Source: Gracilibacillus sp. YIM 98692 (GTDB lineage: Bacteria; Bacillota; Bacilli; Bacillales; Amphibacillaceae). From it: a stretch of 64,000 nt of DNA. Within the stretch, counting starts at the first letter, position 1. The number at the start of each line of letters is the position of its first letter. The notes under the pieces were generated by a model. It worked only from the letters and a program-made list of their open reading frames with translations, was not told the origin of the DNA and did not search any database. The stretch covers positions 1-64,000 of the forward strand of contig NZ_WIXM01000015.1 of the NCBI RefSeq assembly GCF_010993965.1. Reading direction: 5' to 3'. This document shows, piece after piece, positions 805-8,302 of this stretch. Made by a program: the position numbers and the translations under genes.

Positions 805-905
805 TAGTCATCTATTATTTTTATTGTATCCTGTAACATAATGGAAATGGCAGTAAATAGAATGATATAATAATAGAATAGTTTCATGGCAGAAGGATGG
901 GGTGT

Positions 906-1703
906 ATGGATTTACTTTATAACTTGTTTCAAATTTCTTTGAAATCAGGCGAAGAAATAATGTCGGTATATGACAAAGAATTTGAGGTAGAATTGAAACC
1001 AGATAATTCTCCAGTAACAGCAGCAGATAAACGAGCACATCAGATAATTACGAAGGGGCTTGAAGAACGAGATAAATCTATCCCCATAATCAGTGAGGAA
1101 GGGGAGATTTCCCCTTATCAGGAACGGAAAGATTGGGGACAATTTTGGCTAGTCGATCCACTAGATGGGACAAAAAATTTTGTGAAAAGAAATGGAGAAT
1201 TTACAGTTAACATTGCACTAATTAATGACTGTTATCCAATATTAGGTGCTATCTATGCTCCAGCTTTTGATATATTTTATTTTGGACAAGAGGGAAAAGG
1301 AGCTTATAAATTGGAGAATGCTTCTCAATATAGTGAGTCCATAAAAAGTACAGAAGAATTAATCGAAAAAAGTATTTGTTTACCAGAAAAAAATAATCGA
1401 ACAAAAATGAGAGTAGTCGCGAGTCGTTCCTATCTATCTCCTGAAACCAAGGCATTTATGAATCGTTTTGAAAAGGAAGTGGAAGTTGTATCCTCAGGCA
1501 GCTCTTTGAAATTTTGCTTAGTAGCGGAAGGACAAGCAGATTATTATCCTCGTTATGCCCCTACAATGGAATGGGATACAGGAGCTGGACAAGCGATTGT
1601 GGAAGCGGCAGGGGGTAAAGTTACAAAGCATTCCAACGGCCAAAGGTTTCGTTACAATCGTGAAAATATGAAAAATGAATGGTTTTTAGTTGAAAGACTA
1701 TAA
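906..1703 (+). CDS. cysQ: 3'(2'),5'-bisphosphate nucleotidase / inositol monophosphatase family (CysQ-like)
   Basis: A 265-residue, lithium-sensitive type magnesium phosphatase. CysQ enzymes hydrolyse 3'-phosphoadenosine 5'-phosphate, a by-product of sulfate assimilation. Visible motifs are SPVTAADKRAH near the N-terminus, the metal ligands ISEEGE, the signature WLVDPLDGTKNF, GEFTVNIAL and the C-terminal MEWDTGAGQAIVEAAGG, all of which favour CysQ over myo-inositol phosphatases. An in-frame ATG exists at 897, but AGAAGGA at 891-897 sits about eight bases before 906, and the family usually begins near this point. A bidirectional terminator follows. Confidence 0.85.
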   Translation: MDLLYNLFQISLKSGEEIMSVYDKEFEVELKPDNSPVTAADKRAHQIITKGLEERDKSIPIISEEGEISPYQERKDWGQFWLVDPLDGTKNFVKRNGEFTVNIALINDCYPILGAIYAPAFDIFYFGQEGKGAYKLENASQYSESIKSTEELIEKSICLPEKNNRTKMRVVASRSYLSPETKAFMNRFEKEVEVVSSGSSLKFCLVAEGQADYYPRYAPTMEWDTGAGQAIVEAAGGKVTKHSNGQRFRYNRENMKNEWFLVERL

Positions 1704-1773: not shown

Positions 1774-3273
1774 TTATCCTATTTTTTTTAAAAATAGTTC
1801 TTCGCTTTTTTCGTTTGATGTTAGGCCGCTTATGATTCCCATTATGACGAAAGCAGCTAATGAACTAAAGAACATTGCTATAAAAATATTTTCGATGACG
1901 TTTAGAGATGTAAAGACAACATATAAGGTAGCGCCTGTGACTAGTGCTGCGATTGCGCCGTAGTTATTAGCACGTTTCCAGAAATAACCCAATGTAATCG
2001 GTGCGATAATTCCAGAGATAATTGCTGAAAAGCTGAATTGAATTAAGAATGCTAAAGACTCTGGTCTTTCTAATGAGAAATATAGAGACAATAGACCAAC
2101 AACGATAAGAGAGCCTTTTGCAACTTTTAACGATTGACGTTCTAGTTGCTTTTCTCCTATTTTTTTGGAAGAAACAATAGGTGCTAGAACACGATAAAAG
2201 TCATTTCCGATACTTGTTGTGATCCCTAGGTATAGACTGTCTGTACTAGATAGAATCGCTGAGATAATCCCTACAATCATGATCGCTGCGATGAAGCTTG
2301 GGAACGCATCGATAATATAAGCAGGAATAGCAGCGTCAGCACTTTCTAATGTTGGGAATAATACACGTGCTGCAAGTCCGCCAAGTACCATTAATGTAGC
2401 AATGACAAAAAGTACTAATCCTGCAGATAAAGTAAATGGTGCAAGATCTTCTTCTGTTTCAATCGATAATACTTTATTTAATAAGTGCGGCATTAAGATA
2501 AAACTAAACAGTAAAAATTGTACAGCCATAATGGCTAGGACACTATTATATGGACCACTGTCAGCTACTGCAGCCGTTAAATTTGGATCAATCGCAGCTA
2601 ACTTGTCTGTTAACTCACCAAATACATTGAAGCCACCGCCGATTGTCCAAAAGAAAGAGACAACAATAAAGATAGAAGTAATTGCCATAAGAATCCCTTG
2701 GATCCCATCTGTAATCATTTGGGCGAATGCGCCGCCAAGTCCAATGTAAAGAATGGTAATCGTAACACCGATGATAATACCCCAAACATATGGAATGTTA
2801 AGCACTGTTTCAAAGATAGTAGCTAGTCCAACATTTTGACCAACAATATAATAAACATTAAATAAGATCAATAAAGAAACGAGTACTTGAAGTGCTTTAG
2901 AGTTATATCTTCTTCCAAGCCATTCTGGTAACGTAGAAACGCGGCCAAATTTTTTCCCATAACGCCAAAAGGTTTTTGCAAAAAGTAACAGTCCAACCCA
3001 TGAAACACCAAAGCATCCAAGCGTGTACCATAGTACAGCTGTTCCATATTCATAAGCTAAACCTGGTACCCCGATAAATAAATTCGCACTGGCATAGGAA
3101 GCGGCAAAACTTGCGCCGACAAGCCATGGGCTAACCTTTCCACGTGCTGTCGCAAATCCATTCATAGATTGACTATGAGCTCTTCCTTTCTTTCCAATCC
3201 AAGTAACTACCCCAAAATAGATGGCTAATAATATAATAACGGTCCAAAGTAATACACCAGAACTAGTAATCAT
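1774..3273 (-). CDS. sodium:solute symporter (SSS family)
   Basis: A 499-residue polytopic membrane protein with about 13 hydrophobic segments. It has the SSS hallmarks GASFAASYASANLFIG in the first third, a Trp/Gly-rich YIGLGGAFAQMITDGIQG segment and ISAILSSTDSLYLGI later. The family uses sodium to take up carboxylates, amino acids, sugars or pantothenate. It is the last gene of a minus-strand operon encoding an acyl-CoA ligase and thiolases, so a short-chain keto- or carboxylic acid is a reasonable substrate guess. The S-box control also leaves a methionine-related solute possible. A 31-residue membrane peptide is encoded immediately upstream. Confidence 0.9.
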   Translation of the reverse strand: MITSSGVLLWTVIILLAIYFGVVTWIGKKGRAHSQSMNGFATARGKVSPWLVGASFAASYASANLFIGVPGLAYEYGTAVLWYTLGCFGVSWVGLLLFAKTFWRYGKKFGRVSTLPEWLGRRYNSKALQVLVSLLILFNVYYIVGQNVGLATIFETVLNIPYVWGIIIGVTITILYIGLGGAFAQMITDGIQGILMAITSIFIVVSFFWTIGGGFNVFGELTDKLAAIDPNLTAAVADSGPYNSVLAIMAVQFLLFSFILMPHLLNKVLSIETEEDLAPFTLSAGLVLFVIATLMVLGGLAARVLFPTLESADAAIPAYIIDAFPSFIAAIMIVGIISAILSSTDSLYLGITTSIGNDFYRVLAPIVSSKKIGEKQLERQSLKVAKGSLIVVGLLSLYFSLERPESLAFLIQFSFSAIISGIIAPITLGYFWKRANNYGAIAALVTGATLYVVFTSLNVIENIFIAMFFSSLAAFVIMGIISGLTSNEKSEELFLKKIG

Positions 3274-3276
3274 GAT

Positions 3277-3372
3277 TTATTGTTCCCCTTTCTTCTTTTT
3301 GTATATATTGACCCATAAAGTCAGTCCAACCAACCAAAATAAAGCAATCGCGAGAAAATAAGTAAGAATCAT
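3277..3372 (-). CDS. 31-residue single-helix membrane peptide, putative symporter accessory subunit
   Basis: Starts at ATG 3372-3370, which overlaps the stop of the DUF35 gene as ATGA, and ends four bases before the symporter start. A perfect AAAGGAGG lies six bases upstream of the ATG. The peptide is MILTYFLAIALFWLVGLTLW followed by a short polar end (VNIYKKKKGEQ): one hydrophobic helix and then a Lys-rich tail, giving an inside-positive C-terminus. Several SSS transporters are known to be encoded beside a small membrane accessory protein. Position, coupling and ribosome site make this a real gene; the accessory role is inferred. Confidence 0.75.
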   Translation of the reverse strand: MILTYFLAIALFWLVGLTLWVNIYKKKKGEQ

Positions 3373-3788
3373 TGCGTTTCCTCCTTTGTGAAAAATGGTA
3401 ATGTATGGTTCTCAATAACCTCAAATGACACTTTTACTTTCATCTTGTAAGCTAAATCTTCTTCCTTCACCAATAAATGTGTTAAGAGAGATGGCCCCTC
3501 TTCCAACTCGACGATTCCCACAACGTAAGGTGTTCGATCTTGCCAAGCTGGATGCCCTGCCCGATGAATCACACTCCAAGTTTTTAATGATCCACTACCA
3601 GATGCTTCTTTCCAAGTTAAATCATCAGAAAGGCAGTGAGGACAGTGTTCTCGGGGATAAAAGACCCACTCTTGACAACTATTACATTGTTGAATCGATA
3701 ACTTTCCAGCTGCGACACTGTCCCAAAATGGTTTGCTCACAGGTGTTATCGTTGGTCCTGGTAAAGAAATGTTCTGTAAGGAACTCAT
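3369..3788 (-). CDS. DUF35 OB-fold / Zn-ribbon protein, partner of thiolase-like protein
   Basis: A 139-residue protein with an N-terminal helix, a rubredoxin-like Zn ribbon (CNSCQEWVFYPREHCPHC; four Cys in two pairs around residues 35-55) and a C-terminal OB fold. DUF35 proteins such as ChsH2 bind Cys-poor SCP2-thiolase-like proteins to form aldolases or acyl-CoA handling complexes. The gene overlaps the upstream thiolase-like gene by ATGA and the downstream peptide gene by ATGA, which implies translational coupling and fixed stoichiometry. Substrate cannot be read from the sequence. Confidence 0.85.
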   Translation of the reverse strand: MSSLQNISLPGPTITPVSKPFWDSVAAGKLSIQQCNSCQEWVFYPREHCPHCLSDDLTWKEASGSGSLKTWSVIHRAGHPAWQDRTPYVVGIVELEEGPSLLTHLLVKEEDLAYKMKVKVSFEVIENHTLPFFTKEETQ

Positions 3789-4945
3789 CTTTCACCTCCT
3801 AACACAAGCGCCGTTGTTTCACTTAACGTAGCTCCGTTTCCGGTAACAAGTGCTTGTTTTGCATTTGGTATTTGTCGGTTTCCGCCGTCACCACGTAACT
3901 GAACAACCGCTTCAACGACATGAGACATCCCGCCAGCTAAGTCAGCTTGCCCAAAGCCTAATTGACCTCCGTGTGTGTTTAAAGGATAGTCTCCATCATG
4001 GCCAAAGCTGTGGTTTTTCACAAATTCCCCGAATTCGCCAGGCTTACAAAGACCTGTACTTTCAAGAGTTGTGGCAACAACACTTGTATAACAGTCATAT
4101 AAAGACAGCAGATCGATGTCCTCGATATAAGTTTCAGCCTGTTTCAACGCATGAGGGATTGAGTAGCTAAACGGAAGTGCGTCGATGTCCGGCGCTTGGC
4201 TGACTGCACGGTGTGTGATTTTTTCACCAGCACCTTTTAGGTATACGGGTTTCTTGTTTGATTTTTTGGCTTTTTCTTCTGATGTCACGACAACGGCTGC
4301 TCCTCCAGCAACAGGCATGACGATTTCTAGCAAATGAAGCGGATCTGATATGACCGGTGATTGCAAAATATCTTTCACTTCTAATGGCTTGCCGTAAAAG
4401 ATTGCATTTGGATTTAACTGAGCATTTTTTCTTGCCCAATAAGCAATTTCTGCAAATTCTTCTTGTGTCGATCCGTGTTTTTCCATATGCTGTCGTTTTA
4501 ATAGAGCATAGGAGGTGTTGGCTCCCGAAGCTCCGAATGGAACATCAAACTCACGGATCGGGTTACGGTTTGGCGAACGTAACGCTTCTCCTTTTTCATT
4601 TTTGTTTGCTAGTACACAAACAACCGTTTCACACATTCCTGCTTGAATTGCTGCAGCTGCTCTCCAAATCATCCCAGGCCCAGTCGCTCCTCCAAGATCA
4701 ACTGTATTGGACATGGTTGGATTTATGCCTAAGTATTCAGAAACCGTTGCTGGTACATGCTGCGGTGTTTCCCCAACTTGAGGACCGACAAGAAGGCCAT
4801 CAATTTCTTCTTTAGAAATCCCAGCATCTTGAATTGCTAATCGAGTAGCTTCAGCAATTAAACCTAATGTTGTTTTTCCTTCTGAATAGCGTACAGGTTT
4901 TAATTCACCGATACCAATAATGGCACCTTGTAATCTATTACTCAT
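3785..4945 (-). CDS. thiolase-like protein lacking the nucleophilic Cys (SCP2-thiolase / aldolase-like)
   Basis: A 386-residue member of the thiolase superfamily. The N-terminal region keeps the fold signatures (IQDAGISKEEIDGLL; VDLGGATGPGMIWRAAAAI near residues 80-100), but the usual nucleophilic Cys is replaced within the GGATG stretch. The C-terminal NTHGGQLGFGQADLAGG is present. Cys-less homologues paired with DUF35 proteins, such as Ltp2 with ChsH2, act as retro-aldolases on acyl-CoA side chains rather than as thiolases. The start codon shares a base with the stop of the synthetase gene (TAATG), and its 3' end overlaps the DUF35 gene. A true thiolase is encoded earlier in the same operon. 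Confidence 0.8.
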   Translation of the reverse strand: MSNRLQGAIIGIGELKPVRYSEGKTTLGLIAEATRLAIQDAGISKEEIDGLLVGPQVGETPQHVPATVSEYLGINPTMSNTVDLGGATGPGMIWRAAAAIQAGMCETVVCVLANKNEKGEALRSPNRNPIREFDVPFGASGANTSYALLKRQHMEKHGSTQEEFAEIAYWARKNAQLNPNAIFYGKPLEVKDILQSPVISDPLHLLEIVMPVAGGAAVVVTSEEKAKKSNKKPVYLKGAGEKITHRAVSQAPDIDALPFSYSIPHALKQAETYIEDIDLLSLYDCYTSVVATTLESTGLCKPGEFGEFVKNHSFGHDGDYPLNTHGGQLGFGQADLAGGMSHVVEAVVQLRGDGGNRQIPNAKQALVTGNGATLSETTALVLGGER

Positions 4946-6891
4946 TAAAAATACTCCTTTTCTGACAGGCGAGAGAATGATTGTAAGCTAGATGGATTCT
5001 TCAAGGAAGCTTTATTTTTCACTTCATCTCCTAAAGCTGCCGTTTTCGCAGCACCTTCTACTTTTTTATCATTAATCGTATGCGGAATATCTTCCACCTG
5101 ATAGATTCTCTTAGGCACATGTCTTGGAGACGCTTTTGAACGAATTTGCTTTCGGATGTACGCTGCTAATTCTTCATTAAGATCATCTGTCACCAGACAT
5201 AACACAATTTCTTCGTCGTTATCCTTTGGCAGACCAAATACGATGGAATCTTTAATTTTTTCTATTTGTTCGATAATTCTGTAAATTTCGGCTGTACCAA
5301 TTCGAACACCACCAGGATTTAATGTTGTATCTGCACGTCCATAAATAATAAAGGCTTCATCAATTGTTTGTTCAGCAAAATCGCCGTGTGTCCAAATTCC
5401 CGGTCTTTTGGAAAAGTAGTTATTTCTATATCGTTGATCTCCACCTTCTCCAAAAAAGGTGAGAGGCATGCTTGGGAATGGCTGGGTACACACTAAGTCT
5501 CCTTTTTCCTCATAGACAGATGCACCTCGTTCGTCTAATACATCAACAGCCATTCCTAATGCCTTACAAGCAATTTCTCCACTTTTGACTGGATGTACTG
5601 GAGATCCCATGACAAAGCAACCAATAATTTCGGTTCCACCCGAAATGGAAGCTAGGTGCAGATCTTTTTTCACCGTTTGATAAATCCAATTGTACTGTTC
5701 TGGTACAAGTGGTGCACCACAAGATAAAATACTCTTTAACGATGATAGATCATGTGATTTTTGTAATTCGACACCTGCTTTCATTAATGTCTCCAAATAT
5801 TTAGGACTCGTGCCAAAGTGAGTAAGTCCAATTTCGTCAGCAATATCCCAAAGATGAGTTAAAGAATCTGAGCGAACAGGAGAACCATCATACAATAGAA
5901 TGGCTGCTTCACTAGCTAAGCCTGATACAAGCCAAGGATACATCATCCACGCAGTGTTGGTGTACCAAAATAGTACATCATCTTTGTGGACATCACTATG
6001 CAGTTGATGTTCTTTTACGTGCTGTAGTAGTGTTCCTCCGACAGAATGCACAATTGCTTTTGGTAATCCCGTTGTTCCAGATGTGTATAAAATATATAAA
6101 GGATGATTAAAAGATACTGGTTGAAAATCTGGTTCCAACGCTTCATTGTCACAAAGTGTTTCCCAACTACATGTTTTGACCTGTACGTCTGCTAATTCCC
6201 CTGATAATGTCACAACTGCTGATAGACTATCAATCGCCTCGGTTGTTTCTTTAATTTTGTCCGCAATATTGAATGGCTTTTCTTTATACTGATAGGACAA
6301 TTGTGAAATTAATACTTTTGGTTTTACTTGCCCGATTCGATCAATGATTCCTTTTGCTCCGAAGTCAGGAGAGCATGAAGTCCATACTGCACCTAAGGAA
6401 ACTGTTGCAATTAAAGCAACTAATCCATCTACACTATTGATCGTAACGCCAGCAACACGGTCTCCTTCTTTTAAGCCTAGACTTTTTAGACCTGCCTGAG
6501 CCTTTGCTACTAATATCTTTAGCTCCCTTAAGGTGATCGAACGTCTAACACCATTTTCATCAGCTTCATATGCAACGATACGGTCAAGGGACCCTCGTAA
6601 TAGATTTTCTGCAAAATTCAACTTAGCTTCCGGAAACCATGTAGCATCAGGCATGGATGAGCCAGGGGTGAAGATACGTTCTCCTTTTTCCCCGATAATT
6701 CCGGCATAGTCCCATACTGCTGACCAAAATTCAGGTAGATGTGAAATCGACCATCGATGTAACCGTTCATATGGAAATAACGGCTGGTTATTGAAATCAG
6801 CAAAAGCTTTTATATGAGATTGTTGAATCTGTTTTTCGGTAGGTTCCCAAAGGTATGGAGAACGCTTGGTTATCGTTTGTGCACTCATCAA
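4945..6891 (-). CDS. aacS: acetoacetyl-CoA synthetase-like acyl-CoA ligase
   Basis: About 648 residues, normal for acetoacetate-CoA ligase of the ANL superfamily, which activates acetoacetate (or a related acid) with ATP and CoA. The N-terminal region has the family-specific WEPTEKQI and FPEAKLNFAENLL. The P-loop motif YTSGTTGLPK is at residues 269-278, GISGGTEI-type adenine contacts follow, and the C-terminal NPGGVRIGTAEIY and NDKKVEG carry the hinge and catalytic Lys. It starts at TTG 6891 or ATG 6888; AAAGGA is seven bases before the TTG. It lies between a thiolase and a thiolase-like gene. Exact substrate is uncertain because S-box control is unusual for ketone-body use. Confidence 0.8.
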   Translation of the reverse strand: MMSAQTITKRSPYLWEPTEKQIQQSHIKAFADFNNQPLFPYERLHRWSISHLPEFWSAVWDYAGIIGEKGERIFTPGSSMPDATWFPEAKLNFAENLLRGSLDRIVAYEADENGVRRSITLRELKILVAKAQAGLKSLGLKEGDRVAGVTINSVDGLVALIATVSLGAVWTSCSPDFGAKGIIDRIGQVKPKVLISQLSYQYKEKPFNIADKIKETTEAIDSLSAVVTLSGELADVQVKTCSWETLCDNEALEPDFQPVSFNHPLYILYTSGTTGLPKAIVHSVGGTLLQHVKEHQLHSDVHKDDVLFWYTNTAWMMYPWLVSGLASEAAILLYDGSPVRSDSLTHLWDIADEIGLTHFGTSPKYLETLMKAGVELQKSHDLSSLKSILSCGAPLVPEQYNWIYQTVKKDLHLASISGGTEIIGCFVMGSPVHPVKSGEIACKALGMAVDVLDERGASVYEEKGDLVCTQPFPSMPLTFFGEGGDQRYRNNYFSKRPGIWTHGDFAEQTIDEAFIIYGRADTTLNPGGVRIGTAEIYRIIEQIEKIKDSIVFGLPKDNDEEIVLCLVTDDLNEELAAYIRKQIRSKASPRHVPKRIYQVEDIPHTINDKKVEGAAKTAALGDEVKNKASLKNPSSLQSFSRLSEKEYF

Positions 6892-6906
6892 AAACTCATC
6901 CTTTCA

Positions 6907-8064
6907 TTATGTCTTCGGAACTTCAAGTAGGATAGCTATTCCTTGGCCGCCACCGCCACATAAACTAGCAATCCCTTTGCCGCCTCCACGTCTTCTTAAT
7001 TCATGGGCGAGCGTTAATACGAGACGGAAGCCAGTTCCACCTAATGGATGACCGATAGCGATCGCACCTCCATTAACGTTCACTCGACTGTAATCTATAT
7101 CTAAATCTCTGCAGCTAGCTATGGCCACACTGGCAAAGGCTTCATTTATCTCAAATAAATCGATATCTTCTATTGATAAGTTGTGTTTTTTTAGTAGACG
7201 CTTGATTGCTTGGGAAGGTTTGGTTTGCAAACTAGCATCTGGTCCTGCTACCTCTGACCAATCAATAATTTCTGCTAACGGTAATTGTCCAATTTCTTTT
7301 GCTTTTTCTTCCGTAGTGACAATACCCACACTAGCTCCATCTGTCATTTGTGATGCATTCCCTGCTGTGATTGTTCCATTATTACCAAAGGCAGGGGAGA
7401 GACTAGCTAATTTTTCTTCGGTTGTACTACTTCGAATGCCCTCGTCTTGATCTAAAAAGTTTGCAATCGGTGCAATTTCTGAATCGAATCGTCCATTGGC
7501 TTGCGCTTGTGCTGCTCTCTGTTGAGAAAGTGCGGCGTATTGATCTTGATCTTGGCGACTGATATCAAATGTACGGTTTTTTTCATCAGTCAGCTCTCCC
7601 ATGGATTGATCAGTAAGGGAACACCATAAACCGTCGTGTAATAAGGTATCCGTTAATGGAGAATGACCAATCCCACTATTCATCCGAACATTTGCAACAT
7701 GCGGTGCATTAGTCATAGAATCAAATCCACCGACAATATATAAGTCTCCTTCTTTTAACAGAAGACGGCGAGAAGCATCTGTAATGGTTGCAATACCGCC
7801 CAAGCAAACATTATTTAATGTAATCGCAGGAATAGATGTATCGACTCCAGCTTGGAAAGCTGCTTGTCTTGCTGGGTTCTGACCTGATCCTGCTTGAATA
7901 ACTTGTGCAAGAAGAACTCCATCTGCATTTTTAGCTTGCGGATTTCTTTCTAGTAATGCTGTTAGAGCTTTAGTACCAAGCTCTGTCGCAGACAACTTCG
8001 CTAATGCTCCTTTCCATTTTCCGAAAGGAGTTCTTATTCCGTCTAACAGAACTATTTTCATCAT
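6907..8064 (-). CDS. acetyl-CoA acetyltransferase (thiolase)
   Basis: A canonical thiolase: nucleophilic Cys in LNNVCLGG (about residue 87), NEAFA, the catalytic His in AIAIGHPLGGTG and the second catalytic Cys in SLCGGGGQG near the C-terminus. It would interconvert acetoacetyl-CoA (or another 3-ketoacyl-CoA) and acetyl-CoA. ATGATG at 8064/8061 follows AAAAGGGGAC with good spacing, so the in-frame ATG at 8082 is not preferred; that upstream ATG also sits against the riboswitch terminator. First gene of the S-box operon, 15 bases before the synthetase. Confidence 0.9.
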   Translation of the reverse strand: MMKIVLLDGIRTPFGKWKGALAKLSATELGTKALTALLERNPQAKNADGVLLAQVIQAGSGQNPARQAAFQAGVDTSIPAITLNNVCLGGIATITDASRRLLLKEGDLYIVGGFDSMTNAPHVANVRMNSGIGHSPLTDTLLHDGLWCSLTDQSMGELTDEKNRTFDISRQDQDQYAALSQQRAAQAQANGRFDSEIAPIANFLDQDEGIRSSTTEEKLASLSPAFGNNGTITAGNASQMTDGASVGIVTTEEKAKEIGQLPLAEIIDWSEVAGPDASLQTKPSQAIKRLLKKHNLSIEDIDLFEINEAFASVAIASCRDLDIDYSRVNVNGGAIAIGHPLGGTGFRLVLTLAHELRRRGGGKGIASLCGGGGQGIAILLEVPKT

Positions 8065-8082
8065 TAAGTCCCCTTTTATCAT

Positions 8083-8117
8083 GTAAAAAATCCCTCTTCC
8101 AGTAAGAAGAGGGATTT
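8083..8117 (-). terminator. S-box expression-platform terminator
   Basis: On the minus strand, AATCCCTCTTC pairs with GAAGAGGGATT, followed by TTTTTT. The 5' arm CTCTTCTTA can instead pair with TAAGAAGAG, which overlaps the 3' side of the aptamer P1 stem (8140-8130). That gives mutually exclusive terminator and antiterminator folds, as in classical S-box leaders that turn genes off when SAM is abundant. Confidence 0.85.
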
Positions 8118-8134
8118 AAATTTATTTCACTCTT

Positions 8135-8240
8135 CTTATCATTCAGGAAGACCTCCTGCAGGAATTAGCACCTTATTAAGCAAAACTGCTTAATGGTTGC
8201 CGGGCATCATTGGGCCAGTCCCTCCGCCTCTCTGGATAAG
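8135..8240 (-). ncRNA. SAM-I riboswitch (S-box) aptamer
   Basis: Read on the minus strand, the leader carries the S-box core: CTTATCCAGAGAGGCGGAGG, GACTGGCCC, CCCGGCAACC, AAGGTGCTAATTCC, TGCAGG and a closing GATAAG. P1 is CTTATC (8240-8235) with GATAAG (8140-8135). The order of conserved blocks and the 106-base length match S-adenosylmethionine riboswitches of Firmicutes. A terminator and antiterminator follow directly, and the thiolase ribosome site lies just after them. I see no substitution in the core that would suggest a changed ligand. Confidence 0.93.
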
Positions 8241-8273
8241 ATAATCATTATTTCTAATATTTAATTGTCTACA

Positions 8274-8302
8274 ATCATAGCAAGCTATTAACCTTATGTC
8301 AA
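8274..8302 (-). promoter_or_regulatory. sigma-A promoter of the S-box operon
   Basis: On the minus strand TTGACA (8302-8297), a 17-base spacer and TATGAT (8279-8274) stand about 30 bases before the riboswitch. This is an almost consensus promoter. The rest of 8303-8570 is AT-rich divergent intergenic DNA in which I see no reliable second promoter for the plus-strand oxidoreductase. Confidence 0.85.

Follow-up and report, generated by a model that had tools for sequence, protein, structure and literature searches.

Riboswitches serve to assign gene functions. In Bacillales, Clostridiaceae and Chloroflexi, various genes under SAM riboswitches are probably involved in cysteine and methionine metabolism or transport (PMC3766115), and the SAM-I derivatives that sense spermidine carry changes in J1/2 and in the P3 internal loop (PMC10853860). 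On the enzyme side, the closest described system is the pair CtSal/CtShy-DUF35. CtSal is a bile-acid side-chain retro-aldolase whose catalytic Tyr302 and Cys304 belong to a YDCY motif, and the zinc site of CtShy is of the Cys3His1 type, with the His kept only among Shy proteins (PMC12329534). The operon of Gracilibacillus sp. YIM 98692 described here has counterparts of both systems. In the part of the literature that we covered, no published description was found of a SAM riboswitch on acetoacetyl-CoA, thiolase or CoA ligase genes.

A SAM-I riboswitch and the genes behind it

The window, by which we mean the whole stretch of 64,000 nucleotides that was analysed, belongs to contig 7 of a 4.37-Mb draft genome. 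The operon and its leader contain the following elements, in the order in which they would be transcribed:

8302-8297 (TTGACA) and 8279-8274 (TATGAT), minus strand: promoter-like site with a 17-base spacer, by sequence match
8133..8242, minus strand: SAM-I (S-box) riboswitch aptamer, RF00162, full length
8103..8138, minus strand: antiterminator, UAAGAAGAG (8138-8130) against CUCUUCUUA (8111-8103), exactly complementary
8088..8117, minus strand: intrinsic terminator hairpin, a 13-bp stem and then a run of U's
6907..8082, minus strand: thiolase (THL) with the Cys present; TIGR01930, Thiolase_N, Thiolase_C
4945..6891, minus strand: AacS-like acyl-CoA ligase (LIG); TIGR01217, best PDB match 4wd1
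3785..4945, minus strand: thiolase-fold protein (THL2), predicted Sal-type retro-aldolase subunit; best PDB match 9myr_A
3369..3788, minus strand: DUF35 partner subunit, zinc ribbon and OB fold; PF01796, PF12172, best PDB match 9myr_B
3278..3373, minus strand: 31-codon ORF with one hydrophobic segment, seen by eye in the sequence
1774..3273, minus strand: Na+/solute symporter (SSS); PF00474, 182.5 bits

The aptamer matched RF00162 over model positions 1-108 of 108 with 88.1 bits (gathering score 44.4), and its E-value of 1.4e-19 excludes a chance match; in the whole window it was the sole Rfam match above the gathering score. Behind it, UAAGAAGAG overlaps the 3' side of P1 and CUCUUCUUA is part of the 5' arm of the terminator. 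Antiterminator and terminator are mutually exclusive, the 3' side of P1 pairing either within the aptamer or with the terminator 5' arm, and the terminator region (8132-8083) has a folding energy of -19.2 kcal/mol. Read from its sequence, the leader follows the usual plan of a transcriptional OFF switch. At high SAM, the aptamer would close P1, the terminator would form and the operon would be silent; as SAM falls, the antiterminator would form and the operon would be transcribed. The earlier note on this DNA had described a full S-box aptamer with an antiterminator, a terminator and a consensus promoter, and the RF00162 score, the complementary arms and the TTGACA-17-TATGAT site bear this description out. 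We consider it very likely that the operon is controlled by a SAM-I riboswitch.

THL scored 410.5 bits with TIGR01930 (cut-off 240.55), and its likelier start codon is the ATG at 8064, which is preceded by AAAGGGGA. The curated family nearest to the symporter is PanF, yet its score with TIGR02119 (167.1 bits) stays below the cut-off of 328.05. The 31-codon ORF had no match in the family searches and may encode an accessory peptide of the symporter. All the genes that the earlier note had listed, namely a thiolase, a ligase, a Cys-less thiolase-like/DUF35 pair and an SSS symporter, are present, but the symporter (1774-3273) lies outside the interval 3277-8302 to which they had been assigned. 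The same note had them overlapping or nearly touching in one transcript. The spacing is indeed close and supports a single transcript; between DUF35 and the symporter there are 95 bases, which hold the small ORF.

This genome carries 11 S-boxes above the cut-off and one weak one. Nine of the ten others above the cut-off precede apparent methionine or sulphur genes, as judged by family searches with several genes named by eye: a MetH/MetF-like gene alongside metE; two sets of metNPQ, one of which has an FMN alpha-hydroxyacid oxidase-like gene behind it; a fusion of MetY with a CoA-binding domain, ahead of acsA; genes of the cystathionine synthase/lyase kind; siroheme genes; PAPS and sulphite reductase genes; a homocysteine S-methyltransferase; and a metA-like gene with one unnamed ORF between. 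The tenth lies upstream of an FMN_dh protein. Among these targets the aldolase operon is an outlier, in agreement with what had been claimed for it from the sequence. It resembles the SAM-I (RF00162) riboswitches of Bacillaceae in aptamer, core letters and terminator/antiterminator platform, whereas its target is a CoA-dependent aldolase cassette and not a recognised methionine or cysteine gene.

Given so unusual a target, the element could be an S-box look-alike with a changed ligand, for which the SAM-I-derived spermidine riboswitches offer a precedent (PMC10853860). We find this very improbable. We aligned 31 aptamers, six from this genome (including this one) and 25 from relatives. By inspection, their letters in the junction and the P3 core match those of the methionine-gene S-boxes of this genome, with a few changes, for example in the first copy of L045; the core of this aptamer agrees with five other S-boxes of the genome at places where the spermidine variants are described as different. 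Moreover, this aptamer scored 90.9 bits with a model to which only the ten other S-boxes contributed.

The predicted retro-aldolase pair and its ligase

Both subunits of the THL2/DUF35 pair had their best PDB match in the Sal system, THL2 with 9myr_A (CtSal, E 2.6e-87) and DUF35 with 9myr_B (Shy-DUF35, E 3.3e-18). THL2 carries the YDCY motif at residues 283-286, and the motif is invariant in nine of nine sequences from Bacillota and Alphaproteobacteria. The nucleophile of thiolases is a Cys of the N-terminal domain; THL2 lacks it and has Gly86 in that column (alignment to 7yvy, counted by eye), which is again invariant in the nine aligned THL2 sequences. The pair differs from CtSal/CtShy-DUF35 in that the DUF35 of the operon has four Cys (CxxC...CxxC) where CtShy has Cys3His1, in the absence of a MaoC domain and in its AacS-like ligase partner, and no steroid genes were noticed nearby. 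The benzoylsuccinyl-CoA thiolase BbsAB also consists of a thiolase-like protein and a DUF35 protein, but the match to it was much weaker (86.4 bits against a cut-off of 750; 7pxp, E 3.1e-20).

MaoC hydratases adjoin the cassette in most of its close S-box-less relatives, and a 41% relative in Rhodococcus qingshengii has acyl-CoA dehydrogenases, CoA transferases and MaoC hydratases as neighbours; near the S-box-less locus L051 no MaoC was found. Such MaoC neighbours are expected if a hydratase step precedes the retro-aldolase. We judge it probable, from these likenesses, that THL2/DUF35 is a Sal-type retro-aldolase, which would carry a group of enzymes so far characterised with steroid substrates over to what is likely a pathway for small acids.

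LIG scored 684.8 bits with TIGR01217 (acetoacetate--CoA ligase), above the curated cut-off of 520.9, and its best PDB match, 4wd1, is also an acetoacetate-CoA ligase, matched over nearly the whole length; the sequence matches to 4wd1 and 9myr settle the folds of LIG and of the THL2/DUF35 pair. Several motifs are different. Most of eight lone ligases carry, for example, GWMMWNW, GTSAKY and SGGTDIVSCF, and LIG has AWMMYPW, GTSPKY and SGGTEIIGCF at these places, so that in this comparison it lacks the ordinary substrate-side motifs of AacS; in acetyl-CoA synthetase such motifs line the pocket. The cassette ligases as a group have WMMYPW or WMMYHW in place of the WMMWNW type of the lone ones, and four residues, Pro363, Glu421, Gly424 and Thr478, are shared by all of 15 cassette ligases and by none of the eight lone ligases. 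The cassette ligase of R. jostii RHA1 keeps these four residues and is elsewhere unlike both groups. The label of a ketone-body-like operon, which had been given to this gene set, is unsafe in view of the ligase motifs and of the Sal-type likeness of THL2/DUF35.

The transporter that accompanies the cassette varies by lineage (SSS; MHS-type MFS; MFS in alphaproteobacteria; a TIGR00366 protein nearby in Sulfitobacter), a variety that suits a small carboxylate as substrate. By its gene content, the operon looks like a SAM-repressed route for a short-chain beta-hydroxy (or beta-oxo) acid, in which the three reactions and their order are inferred from homology. A short-chain carboxylate would enter by Na+ symport, the AacS-like ligase would attach CoA to it, and the retro-aldolase would split the beta-hydroxyacyl-CoA at C2-C3, releasing acetyl-CoA together with a carbonyl product. 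Any 3-oxoacyl-CoA may be removed by the ordinary thiolase.

Distribution of the cassette and its S-boxes

We collected 80 ligase loci and defined as the related set the 42 Bacillota loci with a ligase identity of at least 59%. The search used a covariance model trained on this genome's ten remaining S-boxes, so that the tested element had no part in it. The earlier note had proposed a search for S-boxes at related operons; one or more were found upstream in 40 of the 42, two of them in series in 32, and none in any of the 38 remaining, more distant ligase loci. The 40 loci span twelve genus names, and conservation on this scale excludes a chance association of S-box and operon. The gene order was S-box(es)-THL-LIG-THL2-DUF35-SSS in 23 of the 42, S-box-S-box-metY-LIG-THL2-DUF35-MHS-THL in six, S-box(es)-LIG-THL2-DUF35 plus either SSS or MHS, THL being present in some and absent from others, in seven, and S-box-THL-SSS-LIG-THL2-DUF35 in three; one further S-box locus (L056) lacks THL2 and DUF35. 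The two loci without an S-box are L051 and L052, at which no other RNA regulator scored over a gathering score.

Since recruitment by the ligase could bias these counts, a search primed with THL2 was also run. Nine of 199 genomes of the order carry THL2, in ten copies of which nine have an S-box, in a set that overlaps the first one (six of the nine genomes plus the centre G356 were already in it, and only two were new). The tenth copy (L117) is S-box-less and shares its genome with a copy that has an S-box; its own neighbours are instead MaoC, an ArsR-rhodanese gene and a second gene of the MFS type. At E 1e-120, THL2 was present in three of 299 genomes of the window's class, all three in its genus; a sample of 375 other genomes from the class of G354, in which only five candidates per genome were scored, gave no match. 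No phage match was found.

With a loose rule, 69 of 73 aptamers have a terminator-like hairpin behind them, but so do 65 of 300 shuffles; with a hairpin score of at least 20, the counts were 14 of 15 tested aptamers and four of 300 shuffles. From these counts, most of the tandem units appear to be full switches, arranged one after the other.

Outside Bacillota, THL2 proteins of 57-68% identity occur in 11 plasmid records. The plasmid cassettes of alphaproteobacteria and Rhodococcus, LIG-THL2-DUF35-MaoC-MFS, have the same core genes, but with MaoC and MFS and with no S-box in the six regions searched; in all, none of eight cassette loci searched outside Bacillota has one. In five annotated alphaproteobacterial plasmid regions the cassette adjoins sugar-type ABC, kinase and class II aldolase genes and not met genes, a context that gave no lead to the substrate. 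Versions that lack the S-box and have other regulator genes nearby (L052, L117 and the alphaproteobacterial and Rhodococcus loci) would fit an ordinary short-chain acid catabolic operon that captured an S-box by chance beside metY, so that SAM control would have no substrate logic, and the metY-led operons show a possible path of capture. This account seems to us quite unlikely. The S-boxes persist across deep divergence, several gene orders and two transporter families, and two aptamers have been retained in 32 of the 42 loci, the majority of them followed by a terminator-like hairpin of their own, which suggests continuing selection. Nor is a single recent capture visible in the THL2 tree (THL2 orthologues only). 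There the S-box-less L052 stands beside S-box loci and the placement of L117 is weak, positions that leave two S-box gains indistinguishable from losses.

The link to metY and the proposed function

Six of the 42 loci have metY as the leading gene after the S-boxes, with the AacS-like ligase immediately next to it, and at L051 metY lies about 1.3 kb upstream with one gene between. Within the genus, and with the ligase as proxy for the operon, all 11 genomes that bear the ligase and two of the six that lack it have an S-box-led orthologue of the MetY fusion (more than 900 bits, a threshold set after the scores were seen; Fisher p 0.006, ancestry ignored). Two of these six have a completeness of 73% and 83%, and G001 was counted as ligase-bearing on two ligase fragments. 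At family level the orthologue was found in 12 of 12 ligase-bearing and four of 25 ligase-lacking genomes, ancestry again ignored. All 23 metY-fusion loci searched have an S-box at E 0.01 or better. The co-occurrence and the shared operons favour a role in methionine or sulphur supply, and this is the purpose that we prefer, tentatively, for the operon. The S-boxes themselves point the same way, nine of the ten others above the cut-off in this genome lying before methionine or sulphur genes. As our best explanation, held with the same reserve, we hypothesize that a SAM-I OFF switch acts on the import, CoA activation and retro-aldol cleavage of an acid for methionine synthesis. Methionine synthesis would probably be the purpose, and in the simplest case the sulphur or methyl groups of the acid would reach MetY as a thiol. 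Conserved, mostly tandem SAM-I control would then predict that these Bacillaceae, several of them halophilic, draw on a short-chain acid for their methionine or sulphur metabolism by a route for which no description was found in the literature searched.

Several observations count against these proposals. No sulphur- or methyl-handling enzyme was found in the operon by homology, which speaks against a sulphur role. Against the methionine reading stand the S-box-less cassettes outside Bacillota with their sugar-side context, and L051, L052 and L117, and the score of LIG above the acetoacetate--CoA ligase cut-off weighs against the best explanation. The S-box-controlled homocysteine S-methyltransferase of this genome does not track the ligase in relatives, which also counts against.

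Carnitine or betaine feeding that methyltransferase was considered and rejected: within the genus, two of the 11 genomes with the ligase have this enzyme, and the present genome has a separate BKACE/carnitine dehydrogenase cluster. Carnitine dehydrogenase was found in six of the 11 genomes with the ligase and in none of the six without it, a difference too weak to build on.

The earlier note had offered two explanations, a methionine-derived or methylthio acid as substrate and a gating of acetyl-CoA drain by the SAM level, and both keep some probability here. The purpose of the operon could also be acetyl-CoA supply, with a sulphur-free, acetoacetate-like acid imported and cleaved at low SAM, since acetyl-CoA is consumed, and acetate set free, along the O-acetylhomoserine route. 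Acetyl-CoA is the predicted end product, LIG exceeds the acetoacetate--CoA ligase cut-off, this genome has the arrangement S-box-metY-acsA (AcsA 794.4 bits, cut-off 729), and in six relatives metY directly precedes the AacS-like ligase. We consider such a role possible but unlikely, because several LIG motifs are unlike those of ordinary AacS, THL was not found in four of the 42 loci, and acsA adjoins metY in just one of 30 metY loci examined, that of this genome, so that the metY-acsA parallel is not conserved. With acsA beside none of the 29 other metY loci, acetate recycling was rejected as a general principle.

The cassette is a small, defined protein set for substrate screening. Within the preferred reading of methionine or sulphur supply, the substrate could be a sulphur-bearing beta-hydroxy acid from phytoplankton or plants, in a new methionine-supply pathway, although we regard this as a long shot. 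Gonyol would suit the chemistry, as would 3-hydroxy-5-methylthiopentanoate, which is gonyol in demethylated form. CoA activation and retro-aldol cleavage would yield acetyl-CoA and methional (or its dimethylsulfonio form). Methional is a source of methanethiol, which MetY can fix into methionine. Marine bacteria turn over gonyol and release methanethiol, with most of the sulphur passing through unidentified pathways (PMC7221440). If the substrate is of this kind, a SAM riboswitch would gate organosulphur salvage in halophiles.

Neighbour of the symporter gene

The symporter gene of the operon (window 1774-3273, minus strand) is convergent with a cysQ gene (window 897-1703). The product of the latter, a 3'(2'),5'-bisphosphate nucleotidase, scored over its family cut-off in a profile search, and its role is that of a helper of sulphate assimilation.

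Other S-box loci of the same genome

On contig 12 (stretch L098, 4377-9355), an S-box precedes genes for MetY fused to a CoA-binding domain and for AcsA, which are followed by a second S-box and an FMN_dh protein gene. The acsA product scored over the acetate--CoA ligase cut-off of the family profile; an acsA gene adjoining metY was not found at the 29 other metY loci examined. On contig 5 (L101, 3871-7770), an S-box is followed by metQ, metN and metP-like genes and by an FMN alpha-hydroxyacid oxidase-like gene, whose product could oxidise methionine hydroxy analogue. At a further locus of contig 5 (L105, 15940-18253), BKACE, L-carnitine dehydrogenase-like and thioesterase genes lie upstream of the S-box, possibly forming a carnitine-to-betaine set from which acetoacetate would be released.

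Surroundings of the cassette in other bacteria

In Heyndrickxia sporothermodurans (L049, 6429-7840), IS3-family transposase genes part the S-box from the ligase gene. Genes for ArsR-type regulators fused to a rhodanese domain adjoin two operon copies that lack the S-box (L052, 16455-17120, assigned by Pfam; L117, 4825-5487, assigned by 59% identity). A carboxymuconolactone-decarboxylase/AhpD-like gene adjoins the cassette of Oceanobacillus (L051, 3930-4595), and another, assigned by eye, lies beside that of Rhodococcus opacus (L137, 7911-8351). On the alphaproteobacterial plasmids (L111-L115), the related cassette occurs together with sugar-type ABC transporter, sugar kinase and class II aldolase genes, to which four of these five stretches add an aldehyde dehydrogenase gene; this gene set is a catabolic cluster.
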